Assembly (NCBI GenBank): GCA_022821145.1
Contig: JAJEEE010000045.1
Coordinates: 1-34,875 of the forward strand
DNA from: Acidobacteriota bacterium
GTDB lineage: Bacteria; Acidobacteriota; Terriglobia; 20CM-2-55-15
Length of the DNA stretch: 34,875 bases
Direction: 5' to 3'
The notes beneath the pieces were generated by a model. That model was given only the letters and a program-made list of their open reading frames with translations, searched no databases and had not been told where the DNA came from. This document shows, in pieces, positions 10,725 through 34,777 of this stretch; position 1 is the stretch's first letter, and every line of letters begins with the position of its first letter. A program made the translations under genes and the position numbers.

Positions 10725-11471
10725 TCATCCCGTAAACGCCCTTTCGCTCGATGCGCGCGACCGGGCGGCGACCAGTTCGCCCGCCCGGTGCAGGGACTCG
10801 AACGTGCCGGCGTCGGTCCACCAGCCGTCGAGCACGCCGTAGGTCATCTGCCCCCGGCGCACGTACGCGTTGTTGACGTCGGTGATCTCCAACTCGCCGC
10901 GTTCCGAGGGTTCCAGCGTCTCGATGATTTCGAAGACGCCGCCGTCGTACATGTAGACGCCCGTCACCGCGTATCGGGACTTCGGGACGATGGGCTTTTC
11001 CTCGATCCCGACGACACGGCCGTCCGATATTTCCACCACGCCGAAACGTTTCGGGTCGTCGACCTCCTTCAGCAGGATCCGGGCGCCTCGGCCCTGCGCC
11101 TCGAATGCCCGGACGTGCGGCGCGATCGAGTCCTCGACGATGTTGTCGCCCAGTACGACGACGATCGGGTCGCCGCCGCTGAAGACGCGGGCCTGCCCGA
11201 GCGCGTGGGCGATGCCGCCTTCGCCGTCCTGGTAGGCGTAGTTGACCCGATCGAGGCCGAATGCCTCGCCGTTCCCCAGGAGCCTCAGGAAATCGCCCGC
11301 GAAGTTGCCGCCCGTGACCAGCAGGATGTCGCGGATGCCGGCCTCCACGAGCGTCTGGATCGGATAGTAGATCATCGGCCGGTCGTAGACCGGCAGCAGG
11401 TGCTTGTTGGTGACCCGGGTCAGCGGCAGGAGCCGCGTGCCCAGGCCGCCGGCGAGGATGACGCCCTTCAC
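10725..11471 (-). CDS. Sugar-1-phosphate nucleotidyltransferase, RmlA type
   Basis: 248 residues. It probably transfers dTMP (or another NMP) onto glucose-1-phosphate to activate the sugar for surface-polysaccharide synthesis in the cytoplasm. The signature G8-G-L-G11-T-R13-L-x-P-x-T with K23 and LLPV is complete. It continues with YDRPMIYYPIQTLVEAGI, the LGDNIVED metal region, the EEKP motif and a terminal GWWTDAGTFESL. The length is that of the short RmlA/archaeal-type enzymes (about 240) and lacks the C-terminal allosteric helices of the 290-residue form. The GTG at 11471 is preferred because KGVILAGG is the invariant N-terminus; the in-frame TTG at 11531 would add 20 unrelated residues. 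A TATCCT box at 11517-11522 suggests its own promoter. No other sugar genes are adjacent. Confidence 0.9.
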   Translation of the reverse strand: MKGVILAGGLGTRLLPLTRVTNKHLLPVYDRPMIYYPIQTLVEAGIRDILLVTGGNFAGDFLRLLGNGEAFGLDRVNYAYQDGEGGIAHALGQARVFSGGDPIVVVLGDNIVEDSIAPHVRAFEAQGRGARILLKEVDDPKRFGVVEISDGRVVGIEEKPIVPKSRYAVTGVYMYDGGVFEIIETLEPSERGELEITDVNNAYVRRGQMTYGVLDGWWTDAGTFESLHRAGELVAARSRASSERAFTG

Positions 11472-11571
11472 GGGCGCGCGGCCTGGCCTACGCACATGGG
11501 GTGTCGCATGCGCGGTAGGATACACTGACAACGCGTGCGCGGGGGGTCCCCTACCGCGGGATTCTGCCGCC

Positions 11572-12813
11572 CTACTCGTACCGCAGCGCCTCGATCGGGT
11601 CGATTCGCGACGCCTTGAGCGCCGGATACACGCCGAACAGGATCCCGACGGTCACCGAGACGCCGAAGGCCACCGCGATGGACGTCGTCGTCACGATCGT
11701 GCTCCATTCGGCGGTTAACGCGATCAGCCACGCCAGCAGGAAGCCGAATCCGATACCCAGCACGCCGCCGCTCGCCGAGATCAGGACCGATTCCGTGACG
11801 AACTGTCGCGCGATGTCGTAGCGGCGGGCGCCGACCGATCGTCGGACGCCGATCTCGCGTGTGCGCTCCATCACAGTGGCGAGGACGATGTTCATGATGC
11901 CGATGCCGCCCACCAGAAGGGAAATGCCCGCGATCGCCACCATCACGTAAGTGAAGATCGTCTGCGTCCGCCGTTGCTGCGCGAGCAGCGCCGCCGGAAT
12001 CGTGACCGTGAAATCCGGCGTGCCCCGATGCGTCGAATCGAGAACGGCCGTCACCACCTTGGCCACCTCCACGCTGTCGGCGCTCTCGGTGAGCCGCATC
12101 TCGATACCGTCGAGTTCGTCCTTCAAGTTGGACCCGCGGTCCCAGAACCGGAACTCGAAGGTGTTCATCGGGATGTAGACCACGTTGTTGATGTCCGGCA
12201 TGGAACCGCCATCGCTCCGGGGACTGGCCATGAGCTGTGCTTCGAGGACGCCGATCACCTCGAGCCAGGTGTCGTTCACCTTGATGAACCGTCCCAGCGC
12301 GGGCTCGTAGCCGAGCAGGTGGACCTTTGCGCTCTCTCCGAGAACCGCGACGGCCGCGCTGGCCGCGGACTGATCGTCGGTGAAGAAACCGCCTTCGGCG
12401 AAACGCAGGTTGTGGATACGCGGGTAGGCCGGATCGACGCCGTACAGGTTCGGAGGATCTCCGGTCGGCTTGGGCAGATAAGCCGCCGGGCGCATGGTCT
12501 TGCGCGACGACATGGCTTCGATGTCGTCGATGTTGGTTCGGAGGATGCGGGCGTCGCGGTGGGTGAGTCCCGGAGAGGAACGCCGCCGGTCCTGCATCTC
12601 TTGCGAGCTGGAGGCCGGTAGGGAATCCACCAGGATGTTTCTCACGCCGAGTTGCTCGATGAAGCGTAACGACTCCTCGCGGGCCCCGGCGCCGATGGCC
12701 ATCATCCCGATCACGGACCCGACGCCGAAGACGATACCCATCGCCGTCAACAGCGTACGCGTCTTCTGGGCGCGCAGGTTGTCGAACGCCTGGCCAACGT
12801 CGGAGAAGAACAT
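11572..12813 (-). CDS. MacB/FtsX-type ABC transporter permease
   Basis: 413 residues. N-terminal membrane helix (LLTAMGIVFGVGSVIGMMAIGAG), then a large periplasmic MacB core domain (about 45-285). Three C-terminal helices follow, including IFTYVMVAIAGISLLVGGIGIMNIVLATVMERTREIGVRRSVGA, the FtsX signature loop, and the ending PALKASRIDPIEALRYE. MacB-type permeases do not form a transport channel; they use ATP hydrolysis in the cytoplasm to drive an adaptor-TolC conduit or act as mechanotransmitters. There is no fused or adjacent ATPase. The ATG at 12813 shares one base with the upstream stop codon (TGATG), so translation is coupled to the adaptor gene before it. Last gene of the four-gene operon. 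Confidence 0.9.
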   Translation of the reverse strand: MFFSDVGQAFDNLRAQKTRTLLTAMGIVFGVGSVIGMMAIGAGAREESLRFIEQLGVRNILVDSLPASSSQEMQDRRRSSPGLTHRDARILRTNIDDIEAMSSRKTMRPAAYLPKPTGDPPNLYGVDPAYPRIHNLRFAEGGFFTDDQSAASAAVAVLGESAKVHLLGYEPALGRFIKVNDTWLEVIGVLEAQLMASPRSDGGSMPDINNVVYIPMNTFEFRFWDRGSNLKDELDGIEMRLTESADSVEVAKVVTAVLDSTHRGTPDFTVTIPAALLAQQRRTQTIFTYVMVAIAGISLLVGGIGIMNIVLATVMERTREIGVRRSVGARRYDIARQFVTESVLISASGGVLGIGFGFLLAWLIALTAEWSTIVTTTSIAVAFGVSVTVGILFGVYPALKASRIDPIEALRYE

Positions 12814-14162
12814 CACCGGGGCAACGCCTCCAGGACGCCGCCCTGGGACGCGCCCTCCGCCGGCCGGCCGGGGCGCGCCAGCGCCACGACGGCCCCTTCC
12901 TCGATGCCGGTGATCACGGCCTGGCTCTCGCTCCTGCGGATGAGCGTCACGTCCTCGGTCACGAATCCTTCCGGCCTTCGCCGGTAGACGAATGTGCGGC
13001 CGTCGCTTTCGAAGAGCGCCTGGGAGGGCACCCATAGCACGTCGTCGAGAACGTCGACCGTGATCAGTATGTCGGCGCTCATGCCGGGCCGCAGGCCCGG
13101 ATCGCTTTCGTCCAGCGCAATCCGGACGTTGAAGGTTCTGTTCCACGCGCTACCGGTCGATCCGCCCAGGACCGTGATGTGGCCCGCGAGTTCGCGGCCC
13201 GGCACCGCCGCCGGCAGCACGGAGACGGCTTGACCGGCCTCGAGATGACCGCGGTCGGCCTCGGGGATCTGGGCGCTCACCTCCCACCGGCTCATGTCCG
13301 GTATCTGAGCCACGGCCTGTCCCGGCCGCGCCGCGTCGCCCGCCCGGTATTCCGGAAGCGTCATCCCGGTGAAGAATACGTTCTGGCCATTCCGATTCTC
13401 CAGCCGTTGGACGAAGCCTCCCGTCCTCGCCCGCAGCGTCAGGGCTTCCATCTCGTCCCGCGCAGCCGCGGCCAGCCGCACGGCCTCGTCCACCGCCGTC
13501 CGCTTCAGTCGGATCGCGGCGTCGGAGCTGGCCTCGCGGTTCTCCAGGCCCAGGACGGCTTGACGGTGACGGTTCCGCGCCCGCTCCAGCGCGATCTCGT
13601 TCTCGCGTCGCTGGATTCCCGAAAGCACCTCGTTCTTCCGCATCTCCTGCTCGGCGATCCGGACCTCGGTTTCCGTGGCGAACACCTGATAGCGGGCGTC
13701 CTCCAGCGCCGCCCGCGCTTCCGCCTCGGCCTGGATCACTTCCTGCCGGGCTTCGAGCAGGTCGGCCTCGGCTTCGCGTATTTCGAATTCCTGCTGCGAC
13801 GTATCGAATTCCACGACCACGTCGCCAGCCGCAACGGCTTCTCCGCTGTCTCTCAGGTAGATGACGGCCATCTCTTCGGCCCCCGTCATGGGCGTGATCA
13901 GGATTTCCGCCCCTCCACCCTGCAGTTCGCCGCGCGCCGGGACCGTGACCGTGACGTTGCCCCGCCGGACCGTGGTCGTTGGAACCGAGGCGTCATCGTC
14001 GATGGCGGTGGCTTCGATGATGCCGCGAATCCCCCGGGAGATTCCGACGCCGGCCCCCACGATGGCCACGGCGGCGAGCCCCAGGACCAGGGCTTGGCGG
14101 ATCAGCTTCCCGGCCTTCGAATCACGTGGCATCGTCGAATCGCCGTGCTCCACCGTGCTCAT
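12813..14162 (-). CDS. Periplasmic adaptor (membrane fusion) protein, third of three
   Basis: 449 residues. One N-terminal membrane anchor (LIRQALVLGLAAVAIVGAGVGI) is followed by the first half of a lipoyl-like domain (VRRGNVTVTVPARGELQGG ... SGEAVAAGDVVVEFD). Next comes an alpha-helical hairpin of about 130 residues rich in Ala/Glu/Arg, and the second lipoyl half (TLRARTGGFVQRL). A beta-barrel (WEVSAQIPEADRGHLEAGQAVSVLP) and a membrane-proximal domain (VLWVPSQALFESDGRTFVYRRRPEGF) complete the classic HlyD/MacA layout. It would link the MacB-like permease to an outer-membrane channel. The start ATG overlaps the previous stop by four bases (ATGA). A later in-frame ATG at residue 11 is possible. 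Confidence 0.88.
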   Translation of the reverse strand: MSTVEHGDSTMPRDSKAGKLIRQALVLGLAAVAIVGAGVGISRGIRGIIEATAIDDDASVPTTTVRRGNVTVTVPARGELQGGGAEILITPMTGAEEMAVIYLRDSGEAVAAGDVVVEFDTSQQEFEIREAEADLLEARQEVIQAEAEARAALEDARYQVFATETEVRIAEQEMRKNEVLSGIQRRENEIALERARNRHRQAVLGLENREASSDAAIRLKRTAVDEAVRLAAAARDEMEALTLRARTGGFVQRLENRNGQNVFFTGMTLPEYRAGDAARPGQAVAQIPDMSRWEVSAQIPEADRGHLEAGQAVSVLPAAVPGRELAGHITVLGGSTGSAWNRTFNVRIALDESDPGLRPGMSADILITVDVLDDVLWVPSQALFESDGRTFVYRRRPEGFVTEDVTLIRRSESQAVITGIEEGAVVALARPGRPAEGASQGGVLEALPR

Positions 14163-25683: not shown

Positions 25684-25772
25684 CCCTGTAGCGACGAGTC
25701 GGATCCGATCGACGCCACCCGCGGGGCGGTGGCTCTGGCGCCCGACGGCAAGCGACTCACGAGTGCCTGCGG

Positions 25773-25785: not shown

Positions 25786-26502
25786 ATGAGTGTATCCGCC
25801 CCGCCCGCCGTGGCGCGCGATCTGGATCGCCGCCGCGTCCGCGCCCTCATTCGGCGCATCTCACGCATCGACGACGTCGGGACCCGCGTCGCAGCGGCCG
25901 GCGGCATGTTCGTGGACGCCCCGTACCGTGCCAACCCGTTGGGCGGCGGACCCGAGGCGCCGGAAGAGATGACCTTGGCGCTGGACGGGTTCGACTGCGT
26001 GACTTTCGTGGAATACGCGCTGGCGCTGGGGGTTGCGGATACGCCCGATCGGTTCGTCGAAACCGTGCGCGCGATCCGCTACCGCGAAGGCGTCGTCGGT
26101 TGGACGACGCGCAACCACTACATGACCGGATGGATCCGCAACAACGCGCGGGCGGGCTTCGTCCGGGATTGCACGGACGGGCTCGGCCTCGTCGAGCGGC
26201 GCCGGCGCCTGGACGCCGTTCCCGGGCTGCGGGCGCGCGATGTCCGGGTGCGCGCCGTCCGGAAACGCGACTTCGTCCGCCGGCTGCCGGAAACAGCCAG
26301 CGGCGACATCGTCTTCTTCGCGTCGACCCGGCCGCGGTTGGACGTGTTTCACTGCGGGATTCTCGTCGTCGACGGGGACAGTGGCGTCGTGTTGCGTCAC
26401 GCGTCCCGCGGCCGGGGCCGCGTCGTCGATCAGAGCCTGACCTCGTTCCTGGCGGCCAACCGCATGTCGGGCGTTTTGCGCGTCCGCCCCCGTTCCACGT
26501 GA
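25786..26502 (+). CDS. DUF1460 amidase-like protein (anhydro-muropeptide amidase family)
   Basis: 238 residues. The family is NlpC/P60-related; its characterised member from Bacteroides uniformis cleaves the MurNAc-L-Ala amide bond of GlcNAc-1,6-anhydroMurNAc-peptides. Here the core begins [17 protein letters not shown], with C71 as the likely nucleophile. It continues with IRYREG and [23 protein letters not shown], then H189 in [11 protein letters not shown] as the likely base, and [17 protein letters not shown]. The length fits one domain. The N-terminus ([25 protein letters not shown]) has no signal peptide, whereas family members are usually exported. Start at 25786, 8 nt after the end of a TAGAAT box; an in-frame start at 25729 would lie upstream of this box. 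The stop overlaps the GTG of the glycosyltransferase gene (GTGA). Confidence 0.87.
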
Positions 26503-27815
26503 GCCGCGCCGTCGAGTTCCCGCGCGACGGTTCGCCGGCGGCCCTCCACCGGGCGTTGGCCGACGCGGCCGCGGCCGGCGACGACGTGCTGTTTCTGGTG
26601 GACCCGGCGTTCGAGGTCGACATCCATGCGTCGGCGCTGGAGCGGATGGCCGGCGTGCTCCGGGAGTGGGGCGCCGGGCTGGTCTTCGCGGACGGCGTGG
26701 ATTGTCCGCGAATCGACTACCAGGCGGGGAGCATTCGCGACGACTTCGATTTCGGCCCCGTCATCGGCTTGTCCGTGCCGGGGAGCCTGGCGGCGATCGA
26801 CAGCGACGGCTCCGGCGACGGGCTACGATGGGGCGCGCTGTACGATCTGCGTCTCAGGCTGTCGCTGGATCACCCGATCGTCCGGGTTCCCGAGCCGCTC
26901 TACGCGGCGCGGGATCCGGACACGCGCGCGTCCGGCCAGAAGATCTTCGACTACGTGGACGCGTCGGCCGCGGACTACCAGAGCGAGATGGAGGCGATCG
27001 CGACGGCGCACCTCTCCCGCATCGGCGCGTTTCTTCCGGAACGGACGCAGCGGGCGCCGGAGACGGGCCGCCGGTTCCCGGTCACGGCCAGCGTCGTCAT
27101 CCCGGTGCGCAACCGAGCGGGGACGATCCGGGACGCGGTCCAGAGCGCCCTCGGGCAGGACGCCGGGTTCGACTTCAACGTGCTGGTCGTCGACAACCAC
27201 TCGACCGACGGCACCGGCTCGGCGTTGGCCGCTGTGCGCGACGCGCGTCTCGTCGTGAAAGTCCCGCGCCGGACGGACCTCGGGATCGGCGGGTGCTGGC
27301 AGGAGGCAATTGTCGCTCCCGAATGCGGCCGCTACGCGCTCCAACTGGATTCCGACGACCTGTTCGCCGGTCCCGGCGTCCTGTCCCGCGTCGTCGACCG
27401 CATGGCGTCGGAACGCTACGCGATGCTCGTCGGCGCCTACACCACGGTCGACTTCGACCTGCGGACGGTTCCGCCGGGCTTGGTCGACCACCGCGAATGG
27501 ACCGCCGGGAACGGCCACAACAACGCGCTTCGCGTCAACGGGCTGGGCGCGCCGCGGGCGTTCGACGTCTCCATCGTCGGCGCGATCGGGTTCCCGAACG
27601 TCAGCTACGGGGAAGACTACGCCGTCGGTCTGCGCGTCGGGCGCGAGTACGCGATCGGCCGCATCTACGAGTCGCTGTACCTGTGCCGGCGTTGGGAAGG
27701 GAACACCGACAGCGCGCCGTCGCGGGAGACCGTCAACCGGTTCAACGGCTACAAGGACTGGCTGCGCACGGCGGAGATCCGCGCGCGGATCGCGATGAAC
27801 CGGGGCTCGCGGTGA
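26499..27815 (+). CDS. Family 2-like glycosyltransferase with two GT-A-like halves
   Basis: 438 residues, GTG start at 26499 overlapping the amidase stop (GTGA). Residues from 195 form a good GT2 catalytic domain: [43 protein letters not shown] (D232), and LQLDSDDLF with D284-S-D286-D as the metal-binding site. The end is [32 protein letters not shown]. The first 190 residues resemble only the middle and end of such a domain ([44 protein letters not shown]) without the N-terminal nucleotide-binding strand, so it is probably a degenerate second GT-A copy. No membrane helix or signal peptide: a cytoplasmic enzyme. The acceptor and donor are unknown; context suggests a sugar released from or attached to muropeptides. 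Coupled to DUF4922 by a second GTGA overlap. Confidence 0.85.
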
Positions 27816-28711
27816 CGCCGGAGGCGATCGACGCGCTCTTCGAGGCACAGACGGCCGCGTGGCCCGACCTCGACCGCGGCGTGGAGAGCCTGGAGCGCGC
27901 GGCACGGCGGGCGTTCGAGATCCGCGGCACGCGCGTCGACGCCGTCCGCATCCCGCACCGCGTCGTCAGCACCACGGCGCCGACCGATCCGGCGGCCATC
28001 CGACAGCGCCCGTGCTTCCTGTGTCCCGAGAACCGTCCGGCCGCGCAGACCGGCATCGCGTTCGGACCCGACATGGTGGTCCTGGCCAATCCGTTTCCGA
28101 TTCTCGAGCGCCACGTCACGCTCGTCCACCGCGAGCACGCGCCGCAGCGGATCACGGGGCCGTCGGGCGTCGGCGCCATGCTCGACGCCGCGCGGGCCTT
28201 GCCCGGATACGTCGTCATCTACAACGGGCCGCGGTCCGGCGCGTCCGCGCCCGATCACCTGCACTTCCAGGCGGGCCGGTCGCGGGGGCTTCCTCTTGTC
28301 GAGAGGGCCGGCGGCGCGGTGGACGGGATGCTGACCGACCCATGGCGGGCGGTTCTCGTCGTGGCCGGGGACGATCCGGAGGACGTGGAAGCGGGCTTCC
28401 GCCGCTTGATGTCCCCGCTCGCGGCGCGTTCCCCGGAGGCCGACGAGCCGCGCGTCAACGTCATCGTGACATTCGAGGGCGGCCGCTGGACGCTGCTGCT
28501 TTTTCCCAGGGCCCGGCACCGGCCGGCGGCTTTCCACGAGGGCCGCCTGACTTGGAGCCCCGGGGCGATCGACATGGCGGGCCTCGTCGTGCTGCCCGTG
28601 GCGGGGGACCTGGAGAAGCTGACGGCCGACGACATCGAGACCGTCTACCGCGAGGTGTCGCTGCCGATCGACGCGGCGCGCGAGATTCTTGCCCGGGAGG
28701 AATCCTCATGA
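27812..28711 (+). CDS. DUF4922 protein of the GalT/HIT fold (nucleotidyltransferase or phosphorylase-like)
   Basis: 299 residues. GTG start at 27812, overlapping the glycosyltransferase stop. The core contains [11 protein letters not shown] (C68-x2-C71, like the zinc-binding CxxC of GalT) and [30 protein letters not shown] motif gives H149-L-H151-F-Q153. HxHxQ is the catalytic triad-like motif of GalT and GDP-L-galactose phosphorylase, where the second His is uridylylated or guanylylated. This places the protein in the branched HIT superfamily that transfers or phosphorolyses sugar nucleotides. The C-terminal half has a repeated beta domain ([23 protein letters not shown]). No signal peptide. 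In my recollection DUF4922 genes are often next to SpoIID genes in Bacteroidetes; its reaction is not established. Next gene overlaps by ATGA. Confidence 0.83.
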
Positions 28712-29946
28712 GAATCGCCGTCGGTCTGATCGAGGATGCGCCCGCCGTCCGGGTGACGCTCGAGGGAGCGTTCCGGGGCGCGGACGGGAGCGCGCGCCCC
28801 CCGGGCGACTATCGGTTCACGCGTCCCGAGGTCCTGGAACCGCTGGAGCCGGAGACGGCGGCCTTCGTCCTTCACGACTTCAGGATCGGCCATGGCTTCC
28901 ACTGGGAACGGCGCCGGCCGTCGGCCTTCCGCGGGGGCCTGCGCCTGGTCCCGGGAACGGGCGGCATGACGGCGATCAACGACGTCGACCTGGAAGCCTA
29001 CGTCGAGAGCGTTATCGCGTCGGAGATGAGCGCGGAGAGTCCCACGGAGCTGCTGCGCGCGCACGCCGTCATATCGCGAAGCTGGGTCGCGGCGCAGTTG
29101 CGAACCGGCGGCGGAGGCGCCTTCAGCCGGCGCCGGGAGGTTTCACCGGGGGAGTGGGAGATCACGGCCTGGTACGGGCGCGAGCGTCACGCCGGCTTCG
29201 ACGTCTGCGCCGACGATCACTGCCAACGCTACCAGGGCGTGCCGGCCTCCGGCACCGAACGGGCGTGGCGGACGGTCCAGGACACGCGCGGCCGGTTTCT
29301 GGTCTTCGATGGACGGGTGTGCGACGCGCGTTTCTCCAAGTGTTGCGGCGGCGTCACTGAGGATTTCCGCTCCGCTTGGGAGGATCGGGACGTTCCCTAC
29401 CTGAGATCGGTGTGCGACGGCGCCGGTGCGGCGCCGGGCGTGGACGACGACTGGCTTCGCTCCGATTGGCCCGGCGCCTACTGCCGCACGGACGACGCCG
29501 TCCTGCTCGCGCGGATCTTCACGAGCTACGACCGGGAAACCCCGGATTTCTTCCGGTGGAGGGTCGCCTATTCGCGGCGCGAGCTCGCCGATATCGTGCG
29601 CTCCCGGAGCGGGATCGACATCGGGGAGCCGATGGCCCTCGAGCCCCTGGAACGGGGACCGTCGGGGCGGATCGTTCGCCTCCGCATCCGGGGCCGCCGC
29701 GCGTCGTTGACCGTCGGGAAGGAGCTGGAGATCCGGCGCGTCCTGTCCGAGTCCCACCTCTACAGCTCGGCGTTTGCCGTCGACGAGGACGGCGACCGGA
29801 TCGTGCTGTCCGGCGCCGGGTGGGGTCACGGGGTCGGCCTGTGCCAAGTGGGCGCGGCGGTCATGGCCGACGGCGGCGCGTCGTACGAGGCGATCCTCGG
29901 CCACTACTACGCCGGAGCGGCCGTCGAGGAGCGGTCGCCGGACTGA
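28708..29946 (+). CDS. SpoIID/LytB domain protein (lytic transglycosylase-like)
   Basis: 412 residues. SpoIID of Bacillus cleaves glycan strands to form 1,6-anhydro ends; its catalytic Glu corresponds to E106 in VIASEMSAESPTELLRAHAVISRSWV. The region has a Cys-rich stretch, DVCADDHCQRYQG and RFSKCCGGVTEDFRSAW. The C-terminal block GAGWGHGVGLCQVGAAVMADGGASYEAILGHYYAG matches the family end. An insertion of about 60 residues between the catalytic Glu and the FSKCCGG part distinguishes it from the short sporulation type. The N-terminus ([20 protein letters not shown]) has no signal peptide. Start ATG 28708 overlaps the DUF4922 stop (ATGA), so it is translated with the amidase and HIT-like enzymes. 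Family assignment is strong; catalytic activity is inference. Confidence 0.9.
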   Translation: MRIAVGLIEDAPAVRVTLEGAFRGADGSARPPGDYRFTRPEVLEPLEPETAAFVLHDFRIGHGFHWERRRPSAFRGGLRLVPGTGGMTAINDVDLEAYVESVIASEMSAESPTELLRAHAVISRSWVAAQLRTGGGGAFSRRREVSPGEWEITAWYGRERHAGFDVCADDHCQRYQGVPASGTERAWRTVQDTRGRFLVFDGRVCDARFSKCCGGVTEDFRSAWEDRDVPYLRSVCDGAGAAPGVDDDWLRSDWPGAYCRTDDAVLLARIFTSYDRETPDFFRWRVAYSRRELADIVRSRSGIDIGEPMALEPLERGPSGRIVRLRIRGRRASLTVGKELEIRRVLSESHLYSSAFAVDEDGDRIVLSGAGWGHGVGLCQVGAAVMADGGASYEAILGHYYAGAAVEERSPD

Positions 29947-29974
29947 CAAGCAAAGATAACCGCCGCGAGTCGTG

Positions 29975-29980
29975 TACAAT
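29975..29980 (+). promoter_or_regulatory. -10 box of the M23 peptidase gene
   Basis: TACAAT, close to consensus, 56 nt before the ATG at 30037. No good -35 at 17 nt. It lets the M23 gene be transcribed apart from the muropeptide operon ending at 29946, though read-through is possible across the 90-nt gap. Confidence 0.4.
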
Positions 29981-30036
29981 ACGGCCGTTGTCCGCCCGGC
30001 GACATGCCGTCGTGACGGGGTTGGATCGGAGCCTGA

Positions 30037-31257
30037 ATGGACACACGCCGGTTGCGGGGTTTCGTCGCGTGGACGATCGTTCTCGCCGGGCTTGGGGCCG
30101 TGCTGGTTCGCGGCTATGAGGCGGACGTTCCGAAGCGCGCCCACCGCGGCCTCCAACCGCCGCCTCCTCCCGTGGACATCGTCCGCGGCGCGTTCGAGCG
30201 AAACGCGACCCTGTCCACGACGCTGGCCGCTTTCGGCCTGCGGCACTCCGTGGTCTACGAGATCAGCGAGGCCGTCCGTCCGGTCTTCGACGTCCGCCGC
30301 TTTCGCCCGGGTCAGGAGTTTACCCTCGTCCGGGACCCCGCCGGCGACTTCATCGAGTTCGAGTACGCGATCGACGAGGAGAGCACGCTGAAGGTGGAGC
30401 GGGTCGAGGACGGGTTGCGGGCGCGGCGCGAGCAGCTTCCCCTAGACGTACACGTCGACACGGTCGCGGCCGAGGTGAACAGCTCTCTGTGGAACGCCCT
30501 GGCCGGTTACGCCCGGGGCGACCGGCTCGTCGTGGAGCTGGACGGCGTGTTCCGGTCCCGCGTCGACTTCTACAGGGACATCCGGGCGGGGGATCGGATC
30601 CGTGTCCTGATCGAAGGCCTGTACCACCAGGGGCGGTTCGTGAAGTACGGCCGGGTGCTGGCCGCCGAGTTCGTCAACCAGGGCCGGTCGTTCCAGGCCT
30701 ACCGGTTCGGCGACGAATACTACGACGAGAACGGCATGAGCACGCGGCGGTCGCTGCTCCCGGCGCCGCTGGAGTTCAGCCGGATCAGCTCGGGATTCAG
30801 CAACGCGCGGCTGCACCCGATCCTGAACACCGTCCGCGCGCACCGCGGCGTGGACTATGCGGCCCCGGCGGGGACTCCGGTGATGGCGGCGGCCGACGGG
30901 ACCGTGACCTTCGCCGGCGCGAACGGGAACTACGGGCGGTTCGTCCGGATCCGCCACGGAAGCGGGGAGTTCGTCACCGAGTACGCGCACCTGTCGCGCA
31001 TCCTGGTCGGTGTCGGACAACGGGTCCGGCAGGAAGACGTGATCGGCCGGGTCGGGATGACGGGCCTGGCGACCGGGCCCCACCTGCACTACCAGTTGAT
31101 GCAGGACGGCCGGTACATCGATCCCCGCAGGGCGCGCGTGGATCCGCCCCAGCCCATCGACGAGGCGCTCCGCGCCGACTTCATGCGCACCATGGCGCCC
31201 CACCAGGTCCGGTTGGCGGCGCTCGATGGGCGAAGCGCGCTCGCGGCCGAAGAGTGA
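30037..31257 (+). CDS. M23 (LytM/MepM-like) peptidoglycan endopeptidase
   Basis: 406 residues. One N-terminal membrane segment (LRGFVAWTIVLAGLGAVLVRG) anchors it, facing the periplasm. Residues about 60-240 include a LysM/OapA-like part (VVYEISEAVRPVFDVRRFRPGQEFTLV). The catalytic M23 domain has H269-x3-D273 (HRGVDYAAP) and H349-x-H351 (PHLHYQL), the zinc ligands and catalytic His, preceded by ISSGFSNARLHPILNTVRAHRG. Overall it matches MepM/YebA-like enzymes that cut cross-links between stem peptides, so the pool of muropeptides could be supplied by it. Start at 30037. It follows the SpoIID gene on the same strand, with its own -10. The C-terminus converges on a small minus-strand gene 9 nt away. 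Confidence 0.93.
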   Translation: MDTRRLRGFVAWTIVLAGLGAVLVRGYEADVPKRAHRGLQPPPPPVDIVRGAFERNATLSTTLAAFGLRHSVVYEISEAVRPVFDVRRFRPGQEFTLVRDPAGDFIEFEYAIDEESTLKVERVEDGLRARREQLPLDVHVDTVAAEVNSSLWNALAGYARGDRLVVELDGVFRSRVDFYRDIRAGDRIRVLIEGLYHQGRFVKYGRVLAAEFVNQGRSFQAYRFGDEYYDENGMSTRRSLLPAPLEFSRISSGFSNARLHPILNTVRAHRGVDYAAPAGTPVMAAADGTVTFAGANGNYGRFVRIRHGSGEFVTEYAHLSRILVGVGQRVRQEDVIGRVGMTGLATGPHLHYQLMQDGRYIDPRRARVDPPQPIDEALRADFMRTMAPHQVRLAALDGRSALAAEE

Positions 31258-31627: not shown

Positions 31628-31684
31628 CGGATTCGTCTTCCTGGACCGACGCCTCGTTGTCCACCCGCGGCGAGCAGCGCCGCG
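31628..31684 (+). repeat. Dispersed hairpin repeat, copy B (degenerate)
   Basis: CGGATTCGT (31628-31636) leads into a divergent version of the core (CTTCCTGGACCGACGCCTCG at 31637-31656). The hairpin arms are CGCGGCG (31666-31672) and CGCCGCG (31678-31684) with loop AGCAG. It lacks the CTCCGCTCG spacer present in copies A and C. Part of the 519-nt gene-free stretch 31591-32109. Confidence 0.65.
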
Positions 31685-31785
31685 CCTACAACTGGGAACT
31701 GCCGCAAGTTCGGGGCGGAAGACGCGAGGACGGTCATGCGTTGGCGGATCCACGGCAATGCGCCACCATGAGGAGGATACGCACA

Positions 31786-31923
31786 ATGTTGCGGCATTCC
31801 CCATCGGACCCGCGGCGAGGAACGCCGCGGGTGGAGAAGGCGGCCTCCGGGCCGCCGCGTCAGCAAGACGAGATCTGGCAAGGGGCCGACACCGTGAACG
31901 AAGAGATCTTTTTCTTGGACTGA
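31786..31923 (+). CDS. Short ORF with strong ribosome-binding site; doubtful
   Basis: A perfect AGGAGG (31771-31776) lies 9 nt before ATG 31786. The reading frame is only 45 codons and most of it is repeat sequence: it runs through hairpin D and ends within copy C (EEIFFLD at the C-terminus). No family is recognised. It might be the 5' end of a gene cut short when repeats entered, a small protein, or a chance Shine-Dalgarno. The same C-terminus (EEI-C-FLD) appears by reading through copy A, so the frame may be coincidental. Confidence 0.2.
   Translation: MLRHSPSDPRRGTPRVEKAASGPPRQQDEIWQGADTVNEEIFFLD
31808..31832 (+). repeat. Hairpin D (isolated repeat stem-loop)
   Basis: Exact copy of the hairpin of copies A and C: arms ACCCGCGGCG (31808-31817) and CGCCGCGGGT (31823-31832) with loop AGGAA. 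It lacks the left-hand core. It lies 116 nt left of the hairpin in copy C, so the hairpin alone can move or be kept independently. Confidence 0.7.
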
Positions 31924-31978
31924 CGCCTCGGCTCCGCCTCGTTGTCCACCCGCGGCGAGGAACGCCGCGGGTCCAAGA
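31901..31978 (+). repeat. Dispersed hairpin repeat, copy C
   Basis: The best copy. Core TTTCTTGGACTGACGCCTCG (31911-31930) is identical to copy A. The hairpin has arms ACCCGCGGCG (31948-31957) and CGCCGCGGGT (31963-31972) with loop AGGAA. Outer arms TCTTGGAC (31913-31920) and GTCCAAGA (31971-31978) are perfect inverted repeats, so the unit could fold as a nested double hairpin. About 90 percent identical to copy A over 72 nt. Confidence 0.8.
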
Positions 31979-34724: not shown

Positions 34725-34777
34725 CGGATTCGTTTCTTGGGCTGACGCCTCGTATCTGGACTCCTCCGTCAAGGAGG
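34725..34777 (+). repeat. Dispersed repeat, copy E (different hairpin)
   Basis: CGGATTCGT (34725-34733) and the core TTTCTTGGGCTGACGCCTCG (34733-34752, one mismatch to copies A and C). The right-hand hairpin differs: CCTCC (34763-34767), loop GTCAA, GGAGG (34773-34777). The core therefore occurs with two unrelated stem-loops. It lies in a 327-nt gene-free stretch at the right edge of the window (34549-34875) in which I see no other supported feature. Confidence 0.55.

Follow-up and report, generated by a model that had tools for sequence, protein, structure and literature searches.

A conserved chain of AmiA-type amidase, glycosyltransferase, DUF4922 and SpoIID genes as a candidate module for peptidoglycan-sugar recycling

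The locus and its four module proteins

A stretch of 34,875 nucleotides from an Acidobacteriota bacterium (contig JAJEEE010000045.1 of assembly GCA_022821145.1), here called the window, was analysed for a chain of four genes encoding an AmiA-type amidase of the DUF1460 family, a family 2 glycosyltransferase (GT2), a DUF4922 protein and a SpoIID/LytB-family protein. An earlier note on this DNA had described a muropeptide-processing operon of these genes and a fifth one for an M23 endopeptidase. The operon is real and broadly conserved, and its assignment to peptidoglycan recycling is well supported with some corrections to that note; the chemistry proposed below is what we infer for it. Open reading frames and gene junctions were read directly and the proteins were assigned to families by Pfam and NCBIfam profile searches, giving the following features (E-values in brackets):

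25786..26502, + strand: predicted DUF1460 (AmiA-type) N-acetylmuramoyl-L-alanine amidase, 238 amino acids, no signal peptide (PF07313, 4.6e-36)
26499..27815, + strand: GT2 glycosyltransferase, 438 amino acids, with a partial N-terminal GT-A-like half and a complete GT-A catalytic domain (Glycos_transf_2, PF00535, 9.6e-14)
27812..28711, + strand: DUF4922 protein, predicted nucleotide-sugar phosphorylase of the Apa2/GalT branch of the HIT superfamily, 299 amino acids (PF16269, 2.7e-45)
28708..29946, + strand: SpoIID/LytB-family protein, predicted cytosolic, 412 amino acids (SpoIID Pfam, 2.7e-21; TIGR02669, 6.2e-50)
30037..31257: M23 endopeptidase, ShyC/MepM-like, membrane-anchored (Peptidase_M23, 1.4e-34)

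The DUF1460 gene starts with the ATG at 25786 and its TGA overlaps the GTG start of the GT2 gene. The TGA of the GT2 gene overlaps the GTG start of the DUF4922 gene in the same manner and the TGA of the latter overlaps the ATG start of the SpoIID gene, so that GTGA, GTGA and ATGA stop-start overlaps link all four genes. Both the gene families and the three overlaps given in the earlier note were thus confirmed. Its statement that the four proteins are synthesised in fixed proportion is a reading of these overlaps and may apply.

The DUF1460 protein matched PF07313 with 124.6 bits (gathering cut-off 27), and its closest solved relatives are 2p1g, 4h4j and 2im9. The catalytic Cys and His of an NlpC/P60-like site, C90 (within FDC) and H208, are invariant in 14 homologues; this numbering refers to the protein begun at an upstream in-frame GTG at 25729 (P0004) and not at the ATG at 25786. 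In the GT2 protein the motifs DSDD, GEDY and RRW are invariant in 40 homologues, D284-S-D286 forming the DxD motif. Its predicted structure (predicted local distance difference test score, pLDDT, 91.2) matched GT-A proteins with Z-scores of 20-24, and the nearest structures are K4 chondroitin polymerase, the UDP-N-acetylglucosamine transferases TarS/TarP and heparosan synthase.

DUF4922 is listed as a family of unknown function, and in the literature it was found only in domain annotations of plant GDP-galactose phosphorylase. Residues C68, C71, H109 and H149-x-H151-x-Q153 are invariant in 40 homologues (CxxC...H...HxHxQ), and these residues may be compared with the zinc site of GalT. A search of solved structures with the single DUF4922 sequence gave nothing useful, while profile and fold searches succeeded. 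The predicted structure (pLDDT 94.7) matched the diadenosine tetraphosphate (Ap4A) phosphorylase Apa2 with a Z-score of 24.2 and a root mean square deviation of 2.7 over 254 residues (Foldseek E-value 7.7e-12), compared to Z-scores of 9.0 for ADP-glucose phosphorylase, about 9 for a uridylyltransferase and 7-9 for GalT. As judged from this model, DUF4922 belongs to the HIT superfamily and is Apa2-like.

The SpoIID protein matched PF08486 with 76.5 bits (cut-off 23) and has the solved relative 4rwr. Homologues from different phyla are 42-87 % identical to it, and in 31 of them the glutamate of the AxEM motif (E106) and a cluster formed by H161, C167, H171 and C172 are invariant. These homologues usually open with a short MxxPxIxVG stretch. 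The window protein carries the SpoIID domain but lacks the N-terminal hydrophobic segment expected for an exported or membrane-anchored enzyme of the wall, and it is therefore an atypical member of this group.

Linkage, localisation and gene fusions

The survey of gene neighbourhoods that the earlier note had named revealed linkage of the module genes well beyond the window's own genome. Strong DUF4922 matches occur in 12 of 297 genomes of the same phylum (weak PF16269 matches with E > 1e-10 were excluded); most of these genomes hold GT, DUF4922 and SpoIID genes, several together with AmiA. When 84,980 species genomes were scanned, the best 80 loci came from Acidobacteriota, Binataceae, Deltaproteobacteria, Bacteroidota and Ignavibacteria. 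Linkage was counted over 92 loci including the window's own, which are best matches and therefore a biased set: the GT gene lies immediately 5′ of DUF4922 in 58 loci (overlapping or at most 30 base pairs, bp, apart in 43), and DUF4922 immediately 5′ of SpoIID in 41 (within 30 bp in 34). Because of this bias an evenly drawn sample of 36 Bacteroidota loci was also examined. Here GT adjoins DUF4922 in most cases, and within about 8 kb SpoIID is present in about a third and AmpG in about a quarter of the loci. The linkage exceeds chance, and the arrangement GT-DUF4922-SpoIID is conserved, often with overlapping genes, in Acidobacteriota, Bacteroidota, Deltaproteobacteria and Ignavibacteria. It is thus not confined to this genome, and the lack of linkage elsewhere, which the earlier note had named as grounds for refutation, was not seen.

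Other contexts were seen as well. A shorter DUF4922 paralogue of about 280 amino acids, found at twelve loci of Dysgonomonadaceae-type genomes, represents a second, different context; next to it lie a gene for an ACT-HAD SerB-like phosphatase and a pair of conserved unknown genes, and its nearest genes include no GT, SpoIID or AmpG. At six Paludibacteraceae loci a Golvesin/Amidase_3-like protein precedes GT and DUF4922 and SpoIID is not nearby, according to which the GT-DUF4922 pair can exist without adjacent SpoIID. A frataxin/CyaY-like gene is located just upstream of AmiA-GT (or GT) at three Blastocatellia-type loci.

No N-terminal hydrophobic segment was detected in 31 SpoIID, 14 AmiA, 40 DUF4922 and 40 GT homologues, nor in the four proteins of the window. 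DUF4922 and SpoIID form a single chain of about 800 amino acids in three related Acidobacteriota genomes (one of these chains runs off its fragment), and an AmgK-like kinase gene adjoins the fusion in two of the three. GT2 and DUF4922 form a single polypeptide in one Syntrophaceae and one Bacteroidota genome. The two kinds of fusion connect DUF4922 with both GT and SpoIID, and they place SpoIID in the cytosol. On sequence grounds, all four module proteins, SpoIID included, are predicted to be cytosolic.

The earlier note had taken SpoIID as the source of the 1,6-anhydro-muropeptides. Since none of the 31 homologues has a signal peptide and three genomes carry the fusion to DUF4922, a role as a wall-cutting maker of these compounds is unlikely, and periplasmic wall digestion by SpoIID was rejected on the same grounds. 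More likely, the protein would act on imported anhydro-muropeptides rather than produce them in the wall.

The M23 endopeptidase was also rejected as an operon member. Its gene begins 90 bp past the end of the SpoIID gene without overlap, its N-terminal hydropathy of 2.24 (0.2-1.2 for the four module proteins) marks a membrane anchor, and its linkage to the module was limited to the window and a genome nearly identical to it. Of the five-gene set in the earlier note, the four overlapping genes therefore stand and the M23 gene does not belong to the module. Three copies of a 25-nucleotide palindromic repeat (ACCCGCGGCGAGGAACGCCGCGGGT type), resembling repetitive extragenic palindromic (REP) elements, lie 3′ of the M23 gene at 31663-31687, 31808-31832 and 31948-31972, and the neighbouring repeat D1 has a further copy at 34729.

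Recycling genes in the host genome and near the module

The genome to which the window belongs (99.3 % complete) encodes AmpG (C85) outside the operon, with 472 bits (cut-off 350). AmgK-like and MurU-like genes overlap each other on another contig. Profile searches of this genome gave no match for AnmK, none for NagZ and no GH3 protein matching the NagZ model, no GH20 protein, and for MurQ only a 25-bit SIS match (cut-off 302). The earlier note had reported that AmpG, NagZ, AnmK and MurQ are missing from the window, but absence from 35 kb alone carries no meaning for these genes. Genome-wide, the statement holds for NagZ, AnmK and MurQ and fails for AmpG. As AmpG and late salvage genes are present and NagZ, AnmK and MurQ are absent, the module fits the gap between them. 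At six loci of other operon-bearing Acidobacteriota genomes MurU-like genes lie beside or near AmgK-like genes, and those scanned score below the curated cut-offs. These MurU-like genes may form a separate subfamily.

Genes for import and salvage also recur next to the module. An AmpG-family transporter is among its neighbours in 26 places, often 3′ of the block in Bacteroidota; MurQ-like genes are found in 8 and genes for MurK-like BadF kinases in 11, and in some Bacteroidota MurQ and a MurK-like kinase face the block. A protein combining GH9 and polysaccharide deacetylase domains is encoded between SpoIID and AmpG at several Bacteroidota loci (11266-13734 at locus L044, and homologues).

In Tannerella forsythia the genes xanthan lyase-gtf-gtf-lytB-ampG-ybbC-murT-murK-murQ (Tanf_08345-08385) form one transcript and AmpG is functional, and no function was assigned to gtf, gtf and lytB (PMC5388701). 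This bacterium grows on the disaccharide of N-acetylglucosamine (GlcNAc) and 1,6-anhydro-N-acetylmuramic acid (anhMurNAc) through AmpG and has no AnmK orthologue; according to the authors, what happens to the disaccharide after that is unexplored (PMC7670621). MurK of T. forsythia does not act as a kinase on anhMurNAc (PMC5790795). A further ring-opening enzyme is therefore needed in T. forsythia.

Proposed route, alternatives and comparison with known systems

Muropeptide recycling by a non-enterobacterial route, as the earlier note had suggested, is supported by the conserved linkage, by the AmpG, MurQ and MurK neighbours and by a host genome with AmpG and without NagZ, AnmK and MurQ. The module very probably serves recycling by handling GlcNAc-anhMurNAc in the cytosol. 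For the chemistry we tentatively propose a four-gene cytosolic pathway between AmpG and AmgK-MurU, which would replace NagZ, AnmK and MurQ. AmpG would bring in the GlcNAc-anhMurNAc-peptide, from which the DUF1460 protein would remove the stem peptide by the reaction known for its family. SpoIID, with its lytic-transglycosylase site and water, would then open the 1,6-anhydro ring to give an ordinary N-acetylmuramic acid (MurNAc) end. Next, GT2 would operate in reverse and move GlcNAc from GlcNAc-MurNAc (or GlcNAc-anhMurNAc) onto UDP, and DUF4922 would phosphorolyse the UDP-GlcNAc to GlcNAc-1-phosphate and regenerate UDP. Together they would act as a two-protein phosphorylase that saves the bond energy NagZ would waste. 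Free MurNAc would finally be converted to UDP-MurNAc by the AmgK-like kinase and the MurU-like uridylyltransferase.

The two central steps differ in their footing. SpoIID of Waddlia is a muramidase on peptide-free glycans with mainly non-anhydro products (PMC6635528). As peptide-free GlcNAc-anhMurNAc is a SpoIID-type substrate and the Waddlia enzyme can use water, hydration of the ring is proposed for the cytosolic SpoIID; this step is plausible, if short of probable. The phosphorylase pair is proposed from the phosphorylase-like fold of DUF4922 and its fusion or coupling to a glycosyltransferase of the UDP-sugar type, and phosphorolytic cleavage of the disaccharide by the two proteins is possible but somewhat unlikely. 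Doubtful, in its full extent, is a third general route of peptidoglycan-sugar recycling in which cytosolic SpoIID ring-opening hydrolases and a UDP-cycling GT2-DUF4922 phosphorylase would circumvent NagZ, AnmK and MupP and supply either AmgK-MurU or MurK-MurQ. Literature searches found no described function for the GT-DUF4922-SpoIID module.

Several points weigh against the proposed pathway. The reactions of all module proteins are predictions from genes, folds, residues, linkage and gene absences, and the reverse direction of GT2 is an assumption for this family. The best NCBIfam matches of the AmgK-like and MurU-like pair, 57 bits for AmgK (cut-off 500) and 117 bits for MurU (cut-off 250), are far below the equivalog cut-offs. 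SpoIID is not adjacent in many Bacteroidota loci, and the second gtf of T. forsythia (Tanf_08355) is equated with DUF4922 from gene order. Moreover, several operon-bearing Acidobacteriota families are without a good AmpG or retain MurQ or NagZ-like genes, so that one pathway may not suit all. In favour of the pathway, none of the 12 Acidobacteriota genomes with strong DUF4922 has AnmK, compared to 101 of the other 285 (Fisher p 0.0099); for Bacteroidota the counts are 13 of 34 genomes with DUF4922 and 151 of 204 others (p 8e-5). These statistics count genomes and not independent events, are uncorrected for relatedness and serve only as support. The full module and AnmK occur together in at least four genomes. 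Thus, the module does not merely stand in for AnmK, and a strict replacement model is weakened.

The direction of the GT2 reaction is the issue in one alternative, which we hold to be unlikely. GT2 would add GlcNAc from UDP-GlcNAc to the disaccharide brought in or to MurNAc as acceptor, DUF4922 would supply or recover the nucleotide sugar, and SpoIID would trim or transglycosylate the product with the anhydro ring as activated donor. The GT2 relatives of known activity, namely K4 chondroitin polymerase, heparosan synthase and TarS/TarP, are indeed synthetic enzymes using UDP-sugars, and lytic transglycosylases are in principle able to act as transglycosylases. However, the host genome, which has neither NagZ/GH3 nor GH20, would be left without a known enzyme for the GlcNAc-anhMurNAc bond, and the neighbours of the module are genes for import and salvage and not for polymer export.

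The GalT-like motif of DUF4922, invariant as it is, and the GalT fold match could also point to a uridylyltransferase that converts a sugar-1-phosphate to UDP-MurNAc (or a UDP-disaccharide) in place of MurU, after opening of the ring by SpoIID with phosphate or water. The AmgK-like kinase beside the DUF4922-SpoIID fusions would be a maker of the required MurNAc-1-phosphate. Nevertheless, we consider this role improbable: the nearest fold is Apa2 and not GalT, and a MurU-like gene lies beside or near the AmgK-like one in the window's genome and several other operon genomes. In the host this step thus seems to be covered.

Synthesis of a protein- or surface-linked glycan, with the operon shared with recycling genes since both respond to wall turnover, would agree with the T. 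forsythia operon, once termed glycosylation-related and with two proteins annotated as glycosyltransferases (PMC5388701). It is very improbable, since the SpoIID and DUF1460 families act on substrates of the peptidoglycan type, in Acidobacteriota and Deltaproteobacteria the unit consists of nothing but AmiA-GT-DUF4922-SpoIID, and no recurring flippase or export gene was noticed in the neighbourhoods. Although all characterised SpoIID proteins are, to our knowledge, extracytoplasmic, export of SpoIID and AmiA by an unrecognised route for wall digestion outside, with GT2 and DUF4922 as unrelated passengers, can be dismissed almost entirely in view of the SpoIID and AmiA homologues without hydrophobic segment, the presence of SpoIID in one chain with a nucleotide-processing HIT-fold domain and the linkage conserved in several phyla.

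The recycling module offers concrete candidates for how bacteria without AnmK, T. forsythia included, use GlcNAc-anhMurNAc, a step reported as unexplained. It gives DUF4922, and an operon seen in several phyla, a testable function, and suggests that SpoIID, otherwise familiar as an enzyme that cuts the wall, may work inside cells too. If true, the GT2-DUF4922 phosphorylase would be an energy-saving way to split the cell-wall disaccharide, of which we found no description in the literature.

Each protein resembles a known one and departs from it. The DUF1460 protein shares family, catalytic Cys and His and the expected substrate with Bacteroides uniformis AmiA, which we take to be the protein of the solved entries 4h4j, 4q5k and 4q68 and which is said to act on GlcNAc-1,6-anhMurNAc-peptide; it differs in being encoded without a signal peptide and in an operon with GT, DUF4922 and SpoIID. 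DUF4922 has a near-whole-chain fold, the HxHxQ motif and the expected nucleotide-dependent chemistry in common with yeast Apa2, Arabidopsis ADP-glucose phosphorylase and GalT, but is only about 19 % identical to Apa2 and differs from it by the additional invariant CxxC and by its sugar-recycling context. The SpoIID protein has the domain, AxEM glutamate and Cys/His cluster of the Bacillus and Waddlia proteins; unlike these, it has no signal peptide or membrane anchor and is fused to or coupled with DUF4922.

At the level of pathways, the window's genome resembles Pseudomonas-type recycling (AmpG, AmpD, NagZ, AnmK, MupP, AmgK, MurU) in AmpG and the AmgK-like/MurU-like pair and differs from it in the absence of NagZ and AnmK, the families of this route that were searched being AmpG, NagZ, AnmK, AmgK and MurU; AmiA-GT-DUF4922-SpoIID would take over what lies between import and AmgK. 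With enterobacterial recycling (AmpG, AmpD, NagZ, AnmK, MurQ) it shares AmpG and a predicted cytosolic removal of the stem peptide, whereas NagZ, AnmK and MurQ were not found. The T. forsythia operon is similar in its order of gtf, second gtf (taken as DUF4922) and lytB/SpoIID, but carries ampG after lytB, which the window's genome has outside the operon, and an upstream xanthan lyase/amidase-like gene in the place of DUF1460.

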